46,996 nucleotides of DNA, taken from Bryobacteraceae bacterium CoA2 C42 (GTDB lineage Bacteria; Acidobacteriota; Terriglobia; Bryobacterales; Bryobacteraceae). Positions 11,712-46,612 of this stretch are shown one piece after another (the stretch's first letter is position 1; each line of letters opens with the position of its first letter). Position numbers and translations under genes: made by a program. The DNA is taken from NCBI GenBank assembly GCA_019931245.1, contig JAINDL010000010.1, positions 1-46,996 on the forward strand, given 5' to 3'. The notes below the pieces were generated by a model. The model made no database searches. It was not told the origin of the DNA and saw nothing but the letters and a program-made list of their open reading frames with translations.

Positions 11712-11787
11712 GTGCCCTTAGCTCAGCCGGTAGAGCGTCGGATTGTGGTTCCGAATGTCGCGGGTTCGATCCCCGTAGGGCACCCCA
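11712..11787 (+). tRNA. tRNA-His (anticodon GTG)
   Basis: A complete cloverleaf can be drawn. The acceptor stem GTGCCCT pairs with AGGGCAC, the D stem is GCTC/GAGC, and the anticodon stem TCGGA/TCCGA holds loop TTGTGGT with anticodon GTG at 11745-11747. The variable loop is ATGTC, and the T stem GCGGG/CCCGT holds loop TTCGATC. Two tRNA-His identity features are present: a G encoded at position -1 (11711) and discriminator C73 (11784). The CCA tail is encoded (11785-11787). The gene stands alone between the RraA-like gene and the kinase. Confidence 0.97.
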
Positions 11788-37769: not shown

Positions 37770-39722
37770 ATGACGCAAGACGCTAAACCCGTATCGCTTC
37801 CGACCCTGGTGCCCCCGTCGGAGGAGTTTGTCCGGCAGGCCAACGTGAGTGGGATGGAGGCTTATCGCGCGCTCTACGCGCGGGCTTTGAACAACACCGA
37901 GGAGTTCTGGGGCCAGTTGGCCGAGCAGGAGCTCGCCTGGTTTGAGCGGTTTGAGAAGCCGCTTGAGTGGAACGCGCCGTTCGCCAAATGGTTTGTGGGC
38001 GGGAAGATCAACGTCTGCTACAACTGCGTGGACCGTCATGCGGAGAACGGGCGGGGCAACAAGGCGGCGATTATCTTTGAGGGCGAACCGGGCGACCAGC
38101 GGACGATTACGTATCGCGAACTGCAGCGGCTGGTGACGCGGTTTGCCAGTTCGCTGCTCGAGTTGGGTTTAAAGACCGGCGACCGGGCGGTGATCTACAT
38201 GCCGATGATTCCCGAGGCCGCGATTGCCATGCTGGGCTGCGCGCGGCTGGGCATTCCGCACTCGGTGGTGTTCGGCGGGTTTTCGGCCGAGGCGTTGAAG
38301 GCGCGGATTCAGGACCTGGAAGCGGCGGTGGTGATTACGGCCGATGGCGGGTGGCGGCGCGGCAAGGAGATCCGGCTGAAGGATGCCGTCGATGAGGCGT
38401 TGCGGGAGTGCCCGACGGTGCGGCATACGGTGGTGTACCAGCGCACCGGTTCAGAAGTGAAGATGGAGAAGGGCCGGGACCACTGGTGGCACGTGCTCGA
38501 TGAGGCGGCGAGCGAGAACGTGGCGCCGGTGCCGCTCGATAGCGAGCATCCGCTGTACGTACTGTACACGTCGGGGACGACGGGCAAGCCAAAGGGGATT
38601 CTGCATACCTCGGCCGGGTATCTGCTGCAGGCGACGATGACGTCGAAGTGGGTGTTCGACCTGAAGGAGCAGGACACGTACTGGTGCACGGCGGACGTGG
38701 GTTGGGTGACGGGGCACAGCTACGTGGTGTACGGCCCGCTGTCGTGCGGCGCGACGAACTTCATGTACGAAGGAGCGCCGGATACGCCGGCTTTTGACCG
38801 CTGGTGGCGGCTGATTGACAAATATAAAATTTCAGTTTTCTACACCTCGCCGACGGCGATCCGGGCGTTGATCCGGCAGGGCGACCATTGGCCGGAGCGG
38901 CATAATCTGGGTTCGCTGCGGTTGTTGGGTTCGGTGGGCGAACCGATCAACCCGGCCGCCTGGGACTGGTATTACCGGGTGATTGGCGGCAGCCGGTGCC
39001 CGATTGTGGATACGTGGTGGCAGACCGAGACGGGGGCGATTCTGATTTCGCCGATGCCGGGGGCGACGCCGCTCAAGCCGGGTTCGGGGACGATGCCGAT
39101 GCCGGGGATTGTGCCGGAGATTGTGGACCACAACGGGCACGCGGTGGAGGACGGCAAAGAGGGCTTCCTGATTATGCGCAAGCCATGGCCGAGCATGCTG
39201 CGGACGATTTGGGGGGATGCCGAGCGGTACAAGGAGCAATACTGGTCGCGCTTTCCGGGCTACTACTTCACGGGGGACGCGGCGCGGAAGGATAAAGACG
39301 GCTACTTCTGGATTCTCGGCCGGGTGGATGACGTGATGAACGTCAGCGGCCACCGGCTGAGCACGATGGAGATTGAGTCGGCGCTCGTGAAGCATCCGGC
39401 GGTGGCCGAGGCGGCGGTGGTGGGTAAGCCGCACGAGATTACGGGGCAGGCGGTGTGCTGCTTTGTGACCTTGAAGAAGAACGCCAAGGATGTGGACACG
39501 CTGGGCAAGGAGTTGCGGCAGTGGGTGGCGCACGAGATTGGACCGTTTGCGCGGCCGGAGGAGATTCGGTTTACCGAGTCTTTGCCGAAGACGCGGAGCG
39601 GGAAGATCATGCGGCGGCTGTTGCGGGAGATTGTGACGTCGAATACGGTGGCGGGTGATGTGACCACGCTCGAAGACATGAACGTGTTGACGTCGCTGGC
39701 GTCGCAGCACGATGAGGATTAG
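37770..39722 (+). CDS. acs: acetyl-CoA synthetase
   Basis: AMP-forming acetate--CoA ligase, 650 residues as usual for Acs. Markers: [17 protein letters not shown], the P-loop [40 protein letters not shown] (acetyl-binding Trp) and the C-terminal [11 protein letters not shown], whose lysine is the target of acetylation control in Salmonella. It makes acetyl-CoA from acetate for biosynthesis or the glyoxylate cycle. The gene ends 232 bp before the guanidine operon; an intrinsic terminator at 39899-39919 might end its transcripts too, though it is 177 bp beyond the stop. Confidence 0.96.
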
Positions 39723-39756
39723 TTTTTTGAATCAAGGGTAGTTGTATTTTTGTTAC

Positions 39757-39838
39757 GCGGCGGGGTAGGCAGCGTGCCATCCTATGGGCATGCAGCCCCC
39801 CGCCGCCAACCAAACCCGTGGAGAAGTTTCTCTCGCGG
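39757..39838 (+). promoter_or_regulatory. structured RNA leader upstream of the guanidine operon (candidate riboswitch/attenuator)
   Basis: Two strong stem-loops precede the UAAP1 gene. Hairpin A (39757-39806): arms GCGGCGGGG and CCCCGCCGC pair over 9 bp, then after a TA bulge GGC/GCC, then after an A/A mismatch GCGTGCC/GGCATGC, closing an 8-nt loop. Hairpin B (about 39816-39838): CCGTG-GAGA pairs with TCTC-CGCGG with one bulged T. A polypyrimidine tract (39877-39899) and the terminator follow. A weak -10-like TATTTT at 39745-39750 would place the transcription start at about hairpin A. The hallmark CTAGGGTTCC and CTGGTCCGAGAG sequences of guanidine-I (ykkC) are not seen, nor the ACGA loops of guanidine-II. 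Structure is seen directly; regulation is inferred. Confidence 0.5.
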
Positions 39839-39898
39839 TCATGCTGCGGTTGACGCGGATGGATGTTTGCTGCGGTCCTCCCTCCTTCCTTCCTTTCT

Positions 39899-39919
39899 CA
39901 GCGGTTCCCGCTGGTTTTT
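39899..39919 (+). terminator. intrinsic terminator in the leader of the guanidine operon
   Basis: Stem CAGCGG / CCGCTG with a 3-nt loop TTC, extended by a G-T wobble pair, followed by G and then five T residues (39915-39919). It lies 36 nt before the UAAP1 ATG, upstream of its AGGAG. Placed here it either ends acs transcripts or, together with the folded leader upstream, acts as a conditional terminator that gates the operon. Confidence 0.75.
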
Positions 39920-39954
39920 AAATCCCCGATTGCCATTTTAAGGAGTTGATTCCC

Positions 39955-40674
39955 ATGTCGACGGAAACGTCCGTACTTTGGGAAGAGTCCCTGCCTGGCG
40001 GTAGCATCTGGTCCCACGTATTCAAGCGCGGCACGGCGTTGCGCATTACGGATACGGAGGGCGGAGCGAACGTCTCGGTACTCTTCTATAACGCTGACAA
40101 TTTTGTGGAGCGTTACAACATGCCCGATACGCTGAAGTGTCAGCACACGGCGCATTTGACGGTGGGCCACTGCCTGTACTCGGATATGGGGCGGGTGATG
40201 GCCTCGATCACCCACGATGACCTGGGCTGGCATGATCCGCTGACCGGCTTTTCGAACAAGGCGATTGTGGAGCGGCAGTTCGGCGCCGGGTCGTATCAGC
40301 AGCTGCGGAACGGGTGGCATACGAATGCGCAGGACCTGATTCTGGTGGAGCTGGCCAAATACGGGATGAATGAGCGGGACTTCACGGCGAGCGTGAACCT
40401 GTTCAGCAAGGTGGTGGTGGAAGAGGACGGTTCGTTCCGGTATGTGGAGGGCCATTCGCCGGCGGGATCGACCGTGGAGCTGCGCAGCGATATGAACACG
40501 CTCATGATTTTATGTACCTGCCCGCATCCGATGGCGCCGGGCGGGGCATGGGCGCCGAAGCCGGTGGGGCTGACGGTGAAGCGGGTGCCGCTGGCGGGCG
40601 CGGAGGATCCTTGCTGGTTGTCGCGGCCGGAGAACGGGCGCGGGTTCACGTTGACCGAGAGGTATTTTCTATGA
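39955..40674 (+). CDS. urea amidolyase-associated protein 1 (DUF1989), carboxyguanidine deiminase subunit CgdA/B type
   Basis: A 239-residue DUF1989 protein of the UAAP1 (TIGR03425) type. The family is known from operons with urea carboxylase; two such proteins were shown in Pseudomonas to form carboxyguanidine deiminase (CgdAB), which turns carboxyguanidine into allophanate and ammonia. Markers: [54 protein letters not shown] and [16 protein letters not shown], where Cys residues near the end may bind metal. A good AGGAG lies 9 nt before ATG 39955; the in-frame TTG at 39946 is less likely. Its stop overlaps the ATG of the next gene (ATGA). Confidence 0.9.
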
Positions 40675-41312
40675 GCTTAGTCGAGAGCCAGTTGACGCCG
40701 GAGACGGCGGTGTACCGGCAGGTGGTGCCGGCGGGGGATGGTTGGATTCACGAAGTCAAGCAGGGGCAGATCTTCCGGATTGTCGATCTCGAAGGCAATC
40801 AGGCGGCGGATACGCTGTTTTTCAATGCCCACGACTACAGCGACCGGTACAGCGCCGTGGACACGATTCGGGAGCAGGGCAGCCTGTACCTGACGACGGG
40901 TTCGGAGTTGAAGACGATTCACGGCCATACGCTGATGACGATCGTCGCCGATACGTGCGGGCGGCACGATACGGTGGGCGGGGCTTGCGCGATGGAATCG
41001 AACATGGTGCGGTACGCCATTGAGAAGCGCTCGATGCACGCCTGCCGGCAGACGTTCGTGCGGTTGGCGCTCGAGTGGGGCGGGGGCCTCGAAAAGCGCG
41101 ACATCACACACAACGTGAACTTCTTCATGAATGTGCCGGTGACGCCGGCGGGGAAGTTGACGTTTGAAGATGGCGTGAGCGCGCCGGGCAAGTACGTGGA
41201 GATGCGGGCGGAGATGGATACGCTCGTGCTGATTTCGAACTGCCCGCAGTTGAATAACCCCTGCAACGCGTATAACCCGACTCCTGTTGAGGTCATGATC
41301 TGGGATGTTTAA
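40671..41312 (+). CDS. urea amidolyase-associated protein 2 (DUF1989), carboxyguanidine deiminase subunit CgdA/B type
   Basis: A 213-residue paralogue of the preceding gene, of the UAAP2 (TIGR03424) type; together they would form the heteromeric carboxyguanidine deiminase. Markers: [70 protein letters not shown] and [20 protein letters not shown]. Conserved Cys and His residues in these segments fit a metal-dependent deiminase. ATG 40671 overlaps the UAAP1 stop; the frame is open upstream but that portion lies inside UAAP1. Its end overlaps the carboxylase start by 8 nt. The three genes are thus translated as a unit. Confidence 0.9.
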
Positions 41313-44300
41313 GAAAGTACTCATAGCCAACCGGGGAGCGATTGCCTGCCGGGTGATCCGGACGCTGCGGCGGATGGGCATTGCTTCGGTGGCCGTATAT
41401 TCCGAGGCGGACACGGGTTCGCTGCACGTGGCGCAGGCCGATGAGGCGGTGCTGCTAGGGCCGTCTTTGGCGGCGGAGAGTTATCTCGACACCGCGAAAG
41501 TGCTGGCGGCGGCGAAGGCCACGGGGGCGGAGGCGATCCACCCGGGCTATGGGTTCTTGAGCGAAAACGCGGGCTTTGCCGAGGCGTGCCGGGCGGCGGG
41601 GATTGCGTTTATCGGCCCGGCGCCGGAGCACCTGCGGGCATTTGGTTTGAAGCATACGGCACGCGAGTTGGCGGCGGCGAACGCGGTGCCGCTGGCGCCG
41701 GGTTCGGGTCTGGTGGGCTCGCTCGAAGACGCGCAGGCGGAGGCGGCGCGGATTGGCTATCCGGTGATGCTGAAGAGTACGGCCGGGGGCGGGGGCATCG
41801 GGATGCAGGTGTGTCACCGGGCCGAGGATCTGGCCGGCGCCTATGAGACGGTGGCGCGGTTGAGCCAGGCGAACTTCAAGGACGGGGGCATGTTCCTCGA
41901 GAAGTTCGTGGCGCGGGCGCGGCATATTGAAGTGCAGATTTTCGGGGACGGGAAGGGCGAGGTGATTGCGCTGGGGGAGCGCGACTGTTCGCTGCAGCGG
42001 CGGAACCAGAAAGTGGTAGAGGAGACGCCGGCGCCGGACCTGCCGGAGGAGATTCGGCAGGCGCTGTTTGGCGCGGCGGAGCGATTGGGGCGGGCGGTGC
42101 AGTACGCCAACGCGGGGACGGTGGAGTTTCTGTACGACGCCGATACGCGGGAGTTTTACTTCCTTGAAGTGAACACGCGGCTGCAGGTGGAGCACGGGGT
42201 GACGGAGCAGGTGACGGGGGTGGACCTCGTCGAATGGATGGTGCGGCAGGCGGCGGGCGAGTTGGAGTTGCAGCGGCCCGCGGTGTGCGGCGCCTCGATT
42301 CAGGTGCGGGTGTACGCCGAAGATCCGGGGCAGAACTTCCGGCCGTCTTCGGGACAGTTGACGGCGGCGAGTTTTCCGGCCGGGGCGCGCGTCGAGACCT
42401 GGGTGGAGCGGGGCAGCGAAATTACGCCGTTCTATGACCCGATGATTGCGAAGGTGATTGTGACGGGCGCCAACCGGGGGGAGGCGATCGGGAAGCTGCG
42501 GGAGGCGCTCGAGGAGACGCAGGTGGCCGGGATTGCCACCAACGTGGAGTATCTGCGGCAGGTGGTGGCGTCGGAGGTGTTCCGGGGAGCGTCGATGACG
42601 ACGGCGTATTTGAACGCGTTTCAGTATGTCTCGCATGCGGTGGACGTGCTGGACGGCGGGACGCAGACGACGGTGCAGGACTACCCGGGGCGGCTGGGTT
42701 ATTGGGAAGTGGGCGTGCCGCCGTCGGGACCGATGGACGCGCTTGCGTTCCGCCTCGCGAACCGGCTGGTGGGGAACGGGGAGGGCGCGGCGGGGCTGGA
42801 ATGCACCGTGACGGGTCCGACGCTTCAGTTTCGCTGCGATGCCGTGATTGCCTTGACGGGCGCGGACATGGAGGCGAAGCTCGACGGCAAGCGGGTGCCG
42901 CGGTGGGAGGCGATGGCCGTGCGGGCCGGGCAGACGCTGCGGATGAACCAGGTGGTGGGCGCGGGGATCCGGGCCTACGTGGCGGTGCGCGGGGGATTCG
43001 ACGTGCCGGAGTATCTGGGGAGCCGGGCCACGTTTGCGCTGGGTAAGTTTGGCGGGCACGGGGGCAGGGTGCTGCGGGCCGGGGACGTGCTGCCGGTGCG
43101 CGAATTGACGGCGGGGGCGGCGGAGCGGACGGAGCATGCACCGGAGTACGGGAACCGGTGGGAGATCGGGGTGTTGTACGGGCCGTACGGGGCGCCGGAC
43201 TACATGACGGATGGCGACATCGCCCTGTTCTTCTCCACCGACTGGAAGGTGCACTACAACTCCGATCGAACCGGGGTGCGGCTGATTGGGCCGAAGCCGG
43301 AGTGGGCGCGGAAGGACGGGGGCGAGGCGGGCCTGCATCCTTCGAACGTGCACGACAACGCCTATGCCGTGGGCACGGTGGACTTCACGGGAGACATGCC
43401 GATTATCCTGGGGCCGGACGGGCCGAGCCTGGGGGGATTTGTTTGTCCGGCGACGATTGTGTCGGCGGAGCTGTGGAAGATGGGGCAGTTGAAGGCCGGC
43501 GACACCGTGCGGTTCCGGCGGATGACGAATCAGCAGGCGGTGCAGCTGGAGTGGGAGCTGGACCGGGCCATTGCGGGGCTGACGCGGCTGCCCGGGCTGT
43601 TTGCCGGGGTGGGAGAGGAGCCGGCCATTGTGATGGCGCACGGGGATACGCTCTACCGGACGGCCGGGGATAAGTATCTGCTGGTGGAGTTCGGCGAGCC
43701 GGTGCTGGACATGAGGCTGCGCTTCCGGGTGCAGGCGATGGCGCACTGGCTGGGGCAGCAGCAGATTCCGGGGGTGATCGACATTACGCCGGGCATCCGG
43801 ACGCTGCAGGTGCACTACGACAGTAGGCAGCTCTCGCGGACGGAGTTGCTGGAGATTCTGGCGCAGTCCGAGGGGCGAACGGAGGAGGAGGTGCCGTCGC
43901 GGATTGTGCATCTGCCGTTGAGCTGGGAGGATCCGCAGACGCTGCTGGCGATTCAGAAGTACATGCAGAGCGTGCGGCCGGATGCGCCGTGGTGCCCTTC
44001 GAACATTGAGTTTATCCGGCGGATTAATGGGCTCGATTCGGTGGAGGACGTCAAGCGCATCGTGTTTGACGCCAGCTACCTGGTGATGGGCCTGGGTGAC
44101 GTTTACCTGGGTGCGCCGGTGGCGACGCCGACCGATCCGCGGCACCGGCTGGTGACGACCAAGTACAATCCGGCGCGGACGTGGACGCCGGAGAACGCGG
44201 TGGGGATCGGCGGGGCTTACCTGTGCGTGTACGGCATGGAGGGGCCGGGCGGCTATCAGTTTGTGGGTCGGACGATTCAGATGTGGAACACCTACAAGAG

Positions 44301-44832
44301 CACGGAGGCTTTTGAGCCGGGCAAACCGTGGCTGCTGCGGGGGTTCGACCAGATTCGCTTCTTCCCGGTGGGCGCGGAGGAGCTGCTCGAGTACCGGAAG
44401 GCGTTTCCGCTGGGTAGATATCCGGTAAAGATTGAGCCGGCGACCTACCGGCTGGCGCCGCCGCCGCCGGGGACGGCGGAGTTCAAGGCGCGGCAGCAGG
44501 CGGCGTTTGAAGCCGAGCGGGAGCGGTGGGGCAAGAACGCGGCGGTGGCCGAGGTGTTTGAAGAGGCGCCGCCGGCGCCGGAACTGGACGTGCCGCCCGG
44601 GTGCCGGGCGCTGCGGGCGCCGACGACGGCGAGCGTGTGGAGCGTGGAGATTGCCGTGGGGCAGATGGTGAGCGAGGGGGGCCGGCTGGTGATTCTGGAG
44701 GCGATGAAGATGGAGGTGGCGGTGTGTTCGCCGGTGAATGGATTGGTGCGGCAGGTGCTGGTGGCGCAGGGCGGGGTGGTGCAGGCGGGTCAGGCGTTGT
44801 TGATTGTCGAGGAGGCTCCCGATGCTGAGTGA
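41305..44832 (+). CDS. biotin-dependent urea/guanidine carboxylase
   Basis: An 1175-residue enzyme that carboxylates urea to allophanate or guanidine to carboxyguanidine with ATP and bicarbonate. Residues 1-450 are the biotin carboxylase with ATP-grasp motifs ([35 protein letters not shown]). Residues ~455-1060 are the carboxyltransferase, related to KipI/KipA allophanate hydrolase subunits ([47 protein letters not shown]). Residues ~1095-1175 are the biotin carrier with biotinylated Lys1135 in EAMKMEV. Linked UAAP1/UAAP2 genes favour guanidine as the true substrate, as in characterised guanidine carboxylases; the residue that separates the two specificities was not assigned here. BirA for biotinylation is encoded at 3934. 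Its stop overlaps the allophanate hydrolase start. Confidence 0.93.
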
Positions 44833-46612
44833 GTTGAGCTTTGATCTCGAGACGCTGCGGAGCGGGTACCTGGCCGGGCGGTTTACGCCGGCCGAGGTGG
44901 TGGCGGAGGCGCGGCGGCGGGCGGGGGGCGGCCGGCCGGTGTGGATCGCGATGACGGACAACGCGCCGGCGGCGACGTTTGATGCGGCCAAGCCGCTGTC
45001 GGGCATTCCGTTTGCGGTGAAGGACAACATTGACGTCGCCGGGATGGAGACAACGGCGGGCTGCCCGGCCTACGCCTACCGGGCGGAGCGGACGGCGGTG
45101 GCGGTGCAGCGGTTGCTGGAGGCGGGGGCGGTGCTGATCGGCAAGACGAACCTGGACCAGTTTGCGACGGGACTGGTGGGGGTGCGGTCGCCGTACGGGG
45201 CGTGCGGGAGCGTGTTTGACGAGACGTACGTGTCGGGCGGGTCGAGTTCGGGTTCGGCGGTGGCGGTGGGGAAGGGGATGGTGACGTTTGCGCTGGGGAC
45301 GGATACGGCGGGGAGCGGGCGGGTTCCGGCGGCGTTCAATAATCTGGTGGGATTGAAGGCGACCAAGGGGGTGGTGCCGGCGAGCGGGGTGGTGCCGGCG
45401 TGCCGGACGCTGGACTGCGTTACGGTGTTTGCGCTGACGTGCGGGGACGCGGCGGCGGTGTTGGAGGTGGCAGGCGGCTTTGACGAGACGGACGCGTACT
45501 CGCGGCCGAGGCGCGTGGCGGCGCAGCCGTGGGCGGTGGGGGCATTCCGGTTCGGGGTGCCGCAGAGGGAGCTGCTGCAGTTCTTTGGGGACGCCGAGGC
45601 GGAGGCGCTGTACTGGCGGGCGGTGGCGCAGTTGGAGGCGTTGGGGGGGACGCGGGTGGAGATTGATTTTCAGGGTTTCCGGGAGAGCGCGGAACTGCTG
45701 TACGCGGGGCCGTGGGTGAGCGAGCGGCTGGCGGCGATCTCGTCGTTCGTGGCGGCGCAGGCCGAGGCGATGCACCCGGTGGTGCGGCAGATTATTCAGG
45801 GGGCGAGCCGGTATTCGGCGCAGGATGGGTTTGAAGCCGAGTATAAGCTGGCGGCGCTGCGGCGGCGGACGGAGGCCGAGTGGCGGAAGATGGACGTGAT
45901 GCTGCTGCCGACGACGGGGACGATCTACAAGATTGCTGCCGTGGAGGCGGATCCGATCCGGCTGAATACGAATCTGGGCTACTACACGAACTTTGTGAAC
46001 TTGCTCGATTTGGCCGCGGTGGCGGTGCCGGCGGGATTCCGGGGCAACGGGTTGCCGTTTGGCGTGACGCTGATGGGGCCGGCGTTTTGCGAGCAGGGGC
46101 TGCTCGAGATGGGCGACCGGCTGCACCGGGCGCAGGGGCGGCACCTGGGCGGGACGATGGCGCGGCTGAGCGAGACGCCGGCGATGGCGGCCGCGGCCGT
46201 GCCGCCGGGCTGCGTGGCGGTGGCCGTGGTGGGGGCGCATTTGAGCGGCATGCCGCTGAACGGGCAGTTGACCGAGCGGGGGGCGAAGCTGCTGCGGACG
46301 ACGCGGACGGCGGGGCACTACCGGTTTTACGCGCTGCCCGGGACGACGCCGCCTAAGCCGGGGCTGGTGCGGACGGAGGGGGCCGTGGGGCAGGGCATCG
46401 AGGTCGAGGTGTGGGCGATGCCGGTGGAACACTACGGCAGTTTTGTGGCGCTGGTGCCGGCGCCGCTGTCGATCGGGTCGCTGGTGCTGGAGGACGGGTC
46501 GACGGTGCAGGGCTTCTTGTGTGAGCCGTATGCGGCGGCGGGGGCGACGGAGATTACGGCGCTGGGCGGATGGCGGAGCTACATGGCGACGCTGGCGAAG
46601 CCTGCGCGGTAG
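44822..46612 (+). CDS. atzF: allophanate hydrolase
   Basis: Hydrolyses allophanate to CO2 and two ammonia, the final step after carboxylation and deimination. 596 residues from ATG 44822, with AGGAGG 8 nt upstream; it overlaps the carboxylase end by 11 nt. The N-terminal ~440 residues are an amidase-signature domain with a complete triad: Lys67 (AVKDNID), cis-Ser141 (GGSSSGSA) and nucleophile Ser165 (TDTAGSGR). The 74- and 24-residue spacings match those reported for AtzF (Lys91, Ser165, Ser189). Residues ~460-596 form the C-terminal domain (GAHLSGMPLNGQL, YRFYALPGTTPPKPGL), which may act on an intermediate. The last ~40 codons are the first copy of a 166-bp tandem repeat. Confidence 0.94.
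   Translation: MLSELSFDLETLRSGYLAGRFTPAEVVAEARRRAGGGRPVWIAMTDNAPAATFDAAKPLSGIPFAVKDNIDVAGMETTAGCPAYAYRAERTAVAVQRLLEAGAVLIGKTNLDQFATGLVGVRSPYGACGSVFDETYVSGGSSSGSAVAVGKGMVTFALGTDTAGSGRVPAAFNNLVGLKATKGVVPASGVVPACRTLDCVTVFALTCGDAAAVLEVAGGFDETDAYSRPRRVAAQPWAVGAFRFGVPQRELLQFFGDAEAEALYWRAVAQLEALGGTRVEIDFQGFRESAELLYAGPWVSERLAAISSFVAAQAEAMHPVVRQIIQGASRYSAQDGFEAEYKLAALRRRTEAEWRKMDVMLLPTTGTIYKIAAVEADPIRLNTNLGYYTNFVNLLDLAAVAVPAGFRGNGLPFGVTLMGPAFCEQGLLEMGDRLHRAQGRHLGGTMARLSETPAMAAAAVPPGCVAVAVVGAHLSGMPLNGQLTERGAKLLRTTRTAGHYRFYALPGTTPPKPGLVRTEGAVGQGIEVEVWAMPVEHYGSFVALVPAPLSIGSLVLEDGSTVQGFLCEPYAAAGATEITALGGWRSYMATLAKPAR

Follow-up and report, generated by a model that had tools for sequence, protein, structure and literature searches.

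A conserved short open reading frame ahead of predicted guanidine-degradation operons in Acidobacteriota, a candidate regulatory leader peptide

The closest described systems are summarized here as far as excerpts of the cited reports describe them. In other bacteria, guanidine carboxylase operons are controlled by guanidine-I and guanidine-II riboswitches (PMC12186494). CruR (DUF2946) is a copper-responsive upstream ORF (uORF) of Bordetella, in which Rho-dependent termination within a stretch with C>G is coupled to a Cys pair and a Pro-Pro motif (PMC9426467). In RAPP-class stalls, the P-site holds the third residue of the motif and the A-site the fourth, and the Arg is needed (PMC12992588, PMC10951233); arrest peptides of this class cannot lose it (PMC12992588). 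ORFs with RAPP or RGPP are more often secretory than controls (PMC12992588, PMC10951233). Mycobacterial leaderless ORFs with contiguous Cys codons respond to cysteine (PMC9031893, PMC4633059).

The locus to be compared with these systems lies in a window of 46,996 nucleotides, the whole stretch of DNA that was analyzed, from Bryobacteraceae bacterium CoA2 C42. To our knowledge, gene regulation in Acidobacteriota is little studied. The leader in question (39723-39954) separates acs from four genes of a predicted operon, with the following features.

Stop codon at 39722, acs (acetate-CoA ligase), the 5' neighbour of the leader
39757-39806, + strand, hairpin I, an interrupted inverted repeat of 19 pairs that spans the predicted -10 box and the start of the short ORF (from the fold and the genus comparison)
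39775-39783, + strand, predicted extended -10 promoter element (TGC plus CATCCT), 6 nt before the short-ORF start codon
39790-39921, + strand, conserved short ORF (candidate leader peptide) of 43 aa, MQPPAANQTRGEVSLAVMLRLTRMDVCCGPPSFLPFSAVPAGF, with ATG at 39790 and stop codon TAA at 39919-39921
39816-39838, + strand, hairpin II, nine pairs, inside the short ORF (from the fold; no two-sided changes seen in seven genus leaders)
39844-39882, + strand, peptide core LRLTRMDVCCGPP, with Cys-Cys codons at 39868-39873 and Pro-Pro codons at 39877-39882
39898-39919, + strand, terminator-like hairpin (39898-39914) with a T run to 39919, overlapping the short-ORF stop codon (present in three of seven genus leaders)
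39940-39945, + strand, Shine-Dalgarno-like AAGGAG of UAAP1, read from the sequence
39955-40674, + strand, UAAP1, carboxyguanidine deiminase subunit family (TIGR03425, DUF1989)
40671-41312, + strand, UAAP2 (TIGR03424, DUF1989), its start codon overlapping the UAAP1 stop
41305-44832, + strand, urea carboxylase family (TIGR02712), predicted guanidine carboxylase
44822-46612, + strand, allophanate hydrolase (TIGR02713), start codon approximate

In an alignment to K. lactis urea amidolyase (5i8i) with hand-counted positions, the operon carboxylase has Asp opposite N1330 and Asp at D1584. Positions 1330 and 1584 of the K. lactis enzyme serve as the criterion for calling guanidine carboxylases in the part of the source consulted (PMC11410670). 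With Asp at both, the UAAP1-UAAP2-carboxylase-allophanate hydrolase operon is therefore predicted to degrade guanidine.

The short ORF fills most of the leader and was overlooked in the sequence-only reading. When the 232-nt leader was searched against 121 family genomes, seven had matches, and in the four lying outside the genus only query positions 105-168 (39827-39890) were matched, because that part is protein code. A core of L-R-x-T-x-M-D-V-C-C-G-P-P is invariant in fifteen peptides; its T varies in a wider set of 23, and among the 71 loci described below this position holds T in 65, N in three and I in three. A profile built from the fifteen peptides, every row of which carries MDVCCGPP, matched 54 places in 53 of 237 family genomes, with the exact MDVCCGPP in 53 of the 54. 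The sole inexact match (L091) is a decayed relative reading MNVCCRPP, with no UAAP gene in the neighbouring ORFs that were read. Of 297 genomes in a phylum-wide sample, the profile matched the window's own only. A later codon scan for MDVCCGPP, covering 84,980 species with a single genome apiece, did recover relatives from other orders; these had been missed by the first profile or through its candidate limit. The scan returned 72 stretches, of which 70 belong to Acidobacteriota according to their record titles, some of which name the order Bryobacterales; Terracidiphilus, Silvibacterium and Acidicapsa are taken by us to belong to the order Terriglobales. The remaining two, L159 (Chloroflexi) and L167 (Thermoplasmatota), are chance matches with the motif in an unrelated ORF or frame and no UAAP gene, and were excluded from all counts.

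The scan set together with the window copy and L054 gave 71 distinct loci after identical copies had been merged (L161 with L145, and loci recovered under a genome handle with their named records). The invariance of MDVCCGPP among the scan loci is built in by the pattern, and more independent support comes from the profile matches and the 12 codons before M. Peptides are 28-43 aa long, typically about 35. In the window's own genome, codons for CCGPP occur at chance level (12 matches versus 13 in the reversed control), and only the window copy scores with the peptide profile (2e-16; next best E 1.45). No match to the short ORF was found on plasmids, and the window peptide had no hit to DUF2946 or any other Pfam family up to E=10. 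A RiPP precursor was considered and dismissed, the single NCBIfam hit being weak (cittilin, E=0.15, with 12.5 bits where the cut-off is 34). No earlier description of the ORF or its motif was found in open-licence PMC papers.

The substitution pattern indicates purifying selection in the ORF frame only, ending at the second proline. Over the 12 codons before M, which are free of the scan pattern, pN/pS is 0.57 in frame versus 0.91 and 1.92 in the other frames, and the profile-found set gives 0.27 (51 distinct sequences, 20 codons). After Pro-Pro it rises to 1.03 over four codons, some of which lie past the stop, or to 0.96-1.07 with coding tail codons alone. The stop codon comes early and in frame: within 12 codons after Pro-Pro in 67 of the 70 loci counted, versus 8 and 14 of 70 for the other frames. 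One to 12 residues follow the Pro-Pro in all 71 loci, never none, which sets the Pro-Pro close to the C-terminal end of the small ORF product, as in RAPP/RGPP-type peptides. Within genus g1, that of the window, a 4-nt length difference directly after GPP alters the tail and shifts the stop codon into the T run of the terminator-like site, leaving the core intact. The leader thus holds what is expected of a leader peptide or uORF, that is, a same-strand short ORF under protein-level selection immediately 5' of an operon.

The genomic setting ties the ORF to the same pathway. The next gene is UAAP1 in 60 of the 71 loci, UAAP2 in four, allophanate hydrolase in three and the carboxylase in one; it is scored as none in three, two of which are contig ends (L149, L187) and the third is L158. 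At L158 (3953-4100), a copy of the ORF stands ahead of a TonB-type-receptor-like gene, and UAAP1 has no match in the corresponding genome (G201). In two class-level samples of 250 genomes, drawn alike and with agreeing genome handles, 26 carried UAAP1 over the cut-off, 15 carried the ORF and 14 carried both, that is, the ORF is present in 14 of 26 genomes with UAAP1 versus 1 of 224 others (Fisher p 5e-15, with relatedness ignored). In the family sample, 15 of 25 UAAP1 genomes have the ORF, one has a truncated form (L006) and nine are without it; the two members of genus g53 are L006 and L003, the latter without the ORF.

In the 12 UAAP1 genomes of the class sample without the ORF, a different gene lies upstream of UAAP1, either a beta-propeller gene (nine) or a GAF-ANTAR gene (three). 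The beta-propeller gene resembles virginiamycin B lyase (Pfam run on L012 only) and is seen upstream of ORF-less UAAP1 at L012, L015, L016, L023-L026, L202, L203 and L205-L208, where L203 displays the same DNA as L202. At the seven correctly measured loci the distance from this gene to the UAAP1 match downstream is 11 to 176 nt, the gene at L207 having been read from the DNA. At L194, L197 and L201, the ORF-less UAAP1 operon stands directly behind the GAF-ANTAR gene (Pfam run on L201 only). GAF-ANTAR proteins are of the RNA-binding antiterminator type, and the gene perhaps provides an alternative control of the UAAP1 operon at these three loci.

Three isolates carry several copies of the ORF, namely RYN_19 (L152, L170), JOPF035 (L124, L135, L179) and JOPF067 (L142, L150). 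In RYN_19, the copy at L152 precedes UAAP1-UAAP2-allophanate hydrolase and that at L170 precedes the carboxylase. A broken UAAP1 gene start lies between ORF and carboxylase at L170, and this unit may be a decayed second operon copy rather than a clean split. The four loci at which the ORF heads a lone UAAP2 unit hint at a signal common to DUF1989 genes and not tied to the carboxylase.

The absence of guanidine-I hallmarks from the leader, as noted in the sequence-only reading, was borne out by an Rfam covariance-model search. No Rfam family matched the leader at the gathering score, the sole hit in the window being a tRNA at 11712-11784, and none of the three hits that 39690-39990 gives up to E=10 belongs to the guanidine-I, -II, -III or -IV families. 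With strict filters, no guanidine-I riboswitch reached the cut-off in any of 237 family genomes. One sub-threshold guanidine-I hit (L192) precedes an EamA-like transporter, named by appearance, on a different contig from that genome's UAAP1. Among the relatives' loci, cmscan gave no hit in 25, and 17 further loci gave only four fluoride riboswitches (RF01734), away from the ORF. These lie in four Terriglobales-type loci in which the short ORF precedes a lone UAAP2-like gene (L124, L142, L160, L179), at 1.0-1.5 kb from the ORF in three and about 5 kb in L160, and adjoin genes resembling enolase, pyrophosphatase or small membrane proteins. We therefore reject a riboswitch, on the basis of the scans of the leader and of these relatives' loci and of a distant conservation confined to code, and ligand sensing by the leader RNA is not supported. 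The proposal of an unrecognized control element holds insofar as the leader sits ahead of a guanidine operon without a guanidine riboswitch; its form as an RNA switch does not hold, since what is conserved at a distance is protein code.

In 51 of the 71 loci, a hexamer resembling a -10 box precedes the chosen start codon by 6-7 nt, from which it is predicted that the mRNA of the short ORF may be leaderless. Compared with shuffles having an equal number of candidates, -10 scores of at least 4 occur in 69 of 71 loci versus 52% of shuffles, and scores of at least 5 in 43 of 71 versus 26%. The score favours A2 and T6, so that their conservation (base table from 70 of the 71 loci) is partly built in; a TG two bases before the hexamer is also enriched, though it was not used in the selection. 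Further upstream, many loci, for example L144 and L154, show enrichment of an A/T block (GATAGAAACTTTTTG-like, its T run lying 27-30 nt ahead of the -10 hexamer), which and may be a regulator site or a -35 element.

The alternatives to a leader peptide that act through nucleic acid draw on the hairpins. An RNA-level switch or attenuator could use hairpins I and II together with the intrinsic terminator. The leader indeed folds better than shuffled sequences (z -3.68; one of 200 shuffles was equally good), and the 19-bp-class interrupted hairpin and the second hairpin described from the letters both appear in the computed fold, as the polypyrimidine tract does in the sequence. In an alignment of seven same-genus leaders, hairpin I keeps 89.5% of its pair cells, with four pairs changed on both sides, whereas the terminator stem keeps only 71%. 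A terminator-like hairpin is present ahead of UAAP1 where the sequence-only reading had placed it, with its T run ending 35 nt before the UAAP1 ATG (39955), but it is not a conserved feature: besides its patchy presence within the genus, such sites between the motif and the next gene occur at chance level (7 of 65 loci versus 5.7 expected), and 39400-40100 holds one where 1.1 are expected by chance. A loss of the terminator position among close relatives had been named beforehand as evidence against a switch acting by transcription termination, and the terminator is indeed not conserved, being kept in three of the seven genus leaders. Beyond the genus, no DNA match among the 121 genomes reaches the hairpins except at the edge of hairpin II, and within the matched segment the constraint is on amino acids. 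With the leader also lacking an Rfam match, we regard an RNA-level switch as very improbable. Hairpin I covers the predicted -10 box together with the start codon of the ORF, so that a transcript from that promoter would lack its 5' arm. The repeat could be a DNA operator for a repressor of the genus, besides or instead of the peptide. The centring of the inverted repeat on the predicted -10 and start, and its partial covariation within the genus, are in keeping with this reading; however, the comparison covers genus g1 alone, and we give this candidate operator little probability.

Two further alternatives accept that the ORF is translated. As a small protein acting in trans, perhaps by binding metals or thiols or by assisting the DUF1989 enzymes, it would account for the strong amino-acid conservation, including Cys-Cys and Asp, and for a DUF1989-type gene (UAAP1 or UAAP2) being next in 64 of 71 loci. 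Against this stand its place right before the unit that it would serve, in 68 of 71 loci, and its two or three copies in three isolates, each heading its own unit; moreover, allophanate hydrolase or the carboxylase is directly next in four loci, the 12 ORF-less genomes of the class sample manage their UAAP1 without it, and the constraint stops at Pro-Pro and leaves the tail free. We consider this reading unlikely. Alternatively, the ORF could gauge the supply of cysteine (or proline) by the speed of the ribosome over the Cys-Cys (or Pro-Pro) codons, and a pair of neighbouring Cys codons towards the end of an ORF that may be leaderless recalls the cysteine-responsive leaderless ORFs described in the excerpts cited (PMC9031893, PMC4633059). 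Such codon-based attenuation leaves the conservation of L, R, T (65 of 71), M, D, V, G, P and P beyond the Cys codons unexplained, the operon yields ammonia from guanidine rather than cysteine, and neither a conserved terminator nor Shine-Dalgarno pairing was found in 65 loci. It is in our view improbable.

We therefore favour, at somewhat better than even confidence, a cis-acting leader-peptide ORF that probably encodes a nascent-chain arrest peptide not belonging to the RAPP/RGPP class. A function of the short ORF in cis is likely from the comparative evidence, arrest of the nascent chain is plausible, and attenuation through the peptide is possible. The extended -10 promoter would start the mRNA at or beside the ORF start codon, and ribosomes would translate the peptide of 28-43 aa from this probably leaderless mRNA. 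With LRxTxMDVCCGPP in the exit tunnel, the ribosome would pause or arrest as it reaches Gly-Pro-Pro, just before the early stop codon, and pausing or not pausing would decide, in cis, the expression of the downstream guanidine-degradation genes. A core near the C-terminus, a free tail and at least one sense codon after Pro-Pro suit a nascent-chain arrest peptide. From the linked genes, guanidine or an intermediate of the pathway is the natural guess for the signal.

The read-out would perhaps be access of Rho in the C-rich spacer, as in CruR. Spacer analyses, which covered the 65 of 71 loci with a script-found start codon, showed C>G after CCGPP in 59 loci versus 11 in the next gene; the 60 nt of ORF sequence ahead of MDV also have C>G in 50 of the 65, and the stretch of strongest excess after CCGPP spans about 36 nt. 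The C>G spacer is thus compatible with a Rho-access feature, weakly so. Pairing that hides the downstream Shine-Dalgarno sequence is not supported as a read-out, the mean unpaired probability being 0.33 versus 0.34 once the upstream sequence is shuffled; in 13 of 65 loci, stalling of a ribosome was computed to free this site by more than 0.2. Against the leader-peptide reading stand the absence of the Arg that is essential in the RAPP class according to the excerpt (PMC12992588), the UAAP1 genomes without the ORF (12 of 26, and L003, with L006 truncated), the copy before a TonB-type receptor gene at L158, the unsupported Shine-Dalgarno hiding, the C>G excess before MDV and the bias of the -10 score towards A2 and T6.

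A bolder version of the leader-peptide reading, possible though doubtful, is that LRxTxMDVCCGPP in the tunnel directly recognizes guanidine or carboxyguanidine, making it a new family of nascent-peptide sensors with a Pro-Pro arrest core that lacks the RAPP-class Arg. Within this version, the pairing partner of the guanidinium group could be the invariant Asp. If so, a peptide would do what four guanidine riboswitch classes do with RNA.

Compared with the described systems, as far as the excerpts go, the short ORF shares with CruR its place as the first ORF of an operon, a conserved Cys pair and a C>G stretch at the ORF end. CruR, however, has 145 residues, is predicted to be exported, carries its CXXC 45 residues before RAPP and is linked to copper genes, whereas the short ORF encodes 28-43 aa with CC directly before GPP and no Arg, ahead of a guanidine operon; the window peptide's lack of any Pfam hit up to E=10 likewise sets it apart from the DUF2946 family. 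With RAPP/RGPP peptides and SecM it has in common a Pro-containing core close to the C-terminal end and a place in a small ORF that precedes other genes. Instead of Arg-Ala/Gly-Pro-Pro, however, Cys-Gly-Pro-Pro is present in all 71 loci, where it is mostly fixed by the scan, and in 53 of 54 profile matches, and the linked genes are metabolic; with Cys in place of the irreplaceable Arg, the short ORF is no member of the RAPP/RGPP class, though it may work similarly, and the element would add a Pro-Pro leader motif outside that class. Adjacent Cys codons, a position at the operon head and possibly leaderless transcription are shared with the mycobacterial polycysteine ORFs, which answer to cysteine, whereas the short ORF keeps the whole LRxTxMDVCCGPP core and heads a predicted guanidine-degrading operon. 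Unlike the guanidine-I to -IV riboswitches, the leader is without an Rfam match and is conserved as protein code, and control by a peptide would give guanidine sensing a second solution, alongside the riboswitches of other bacteria.
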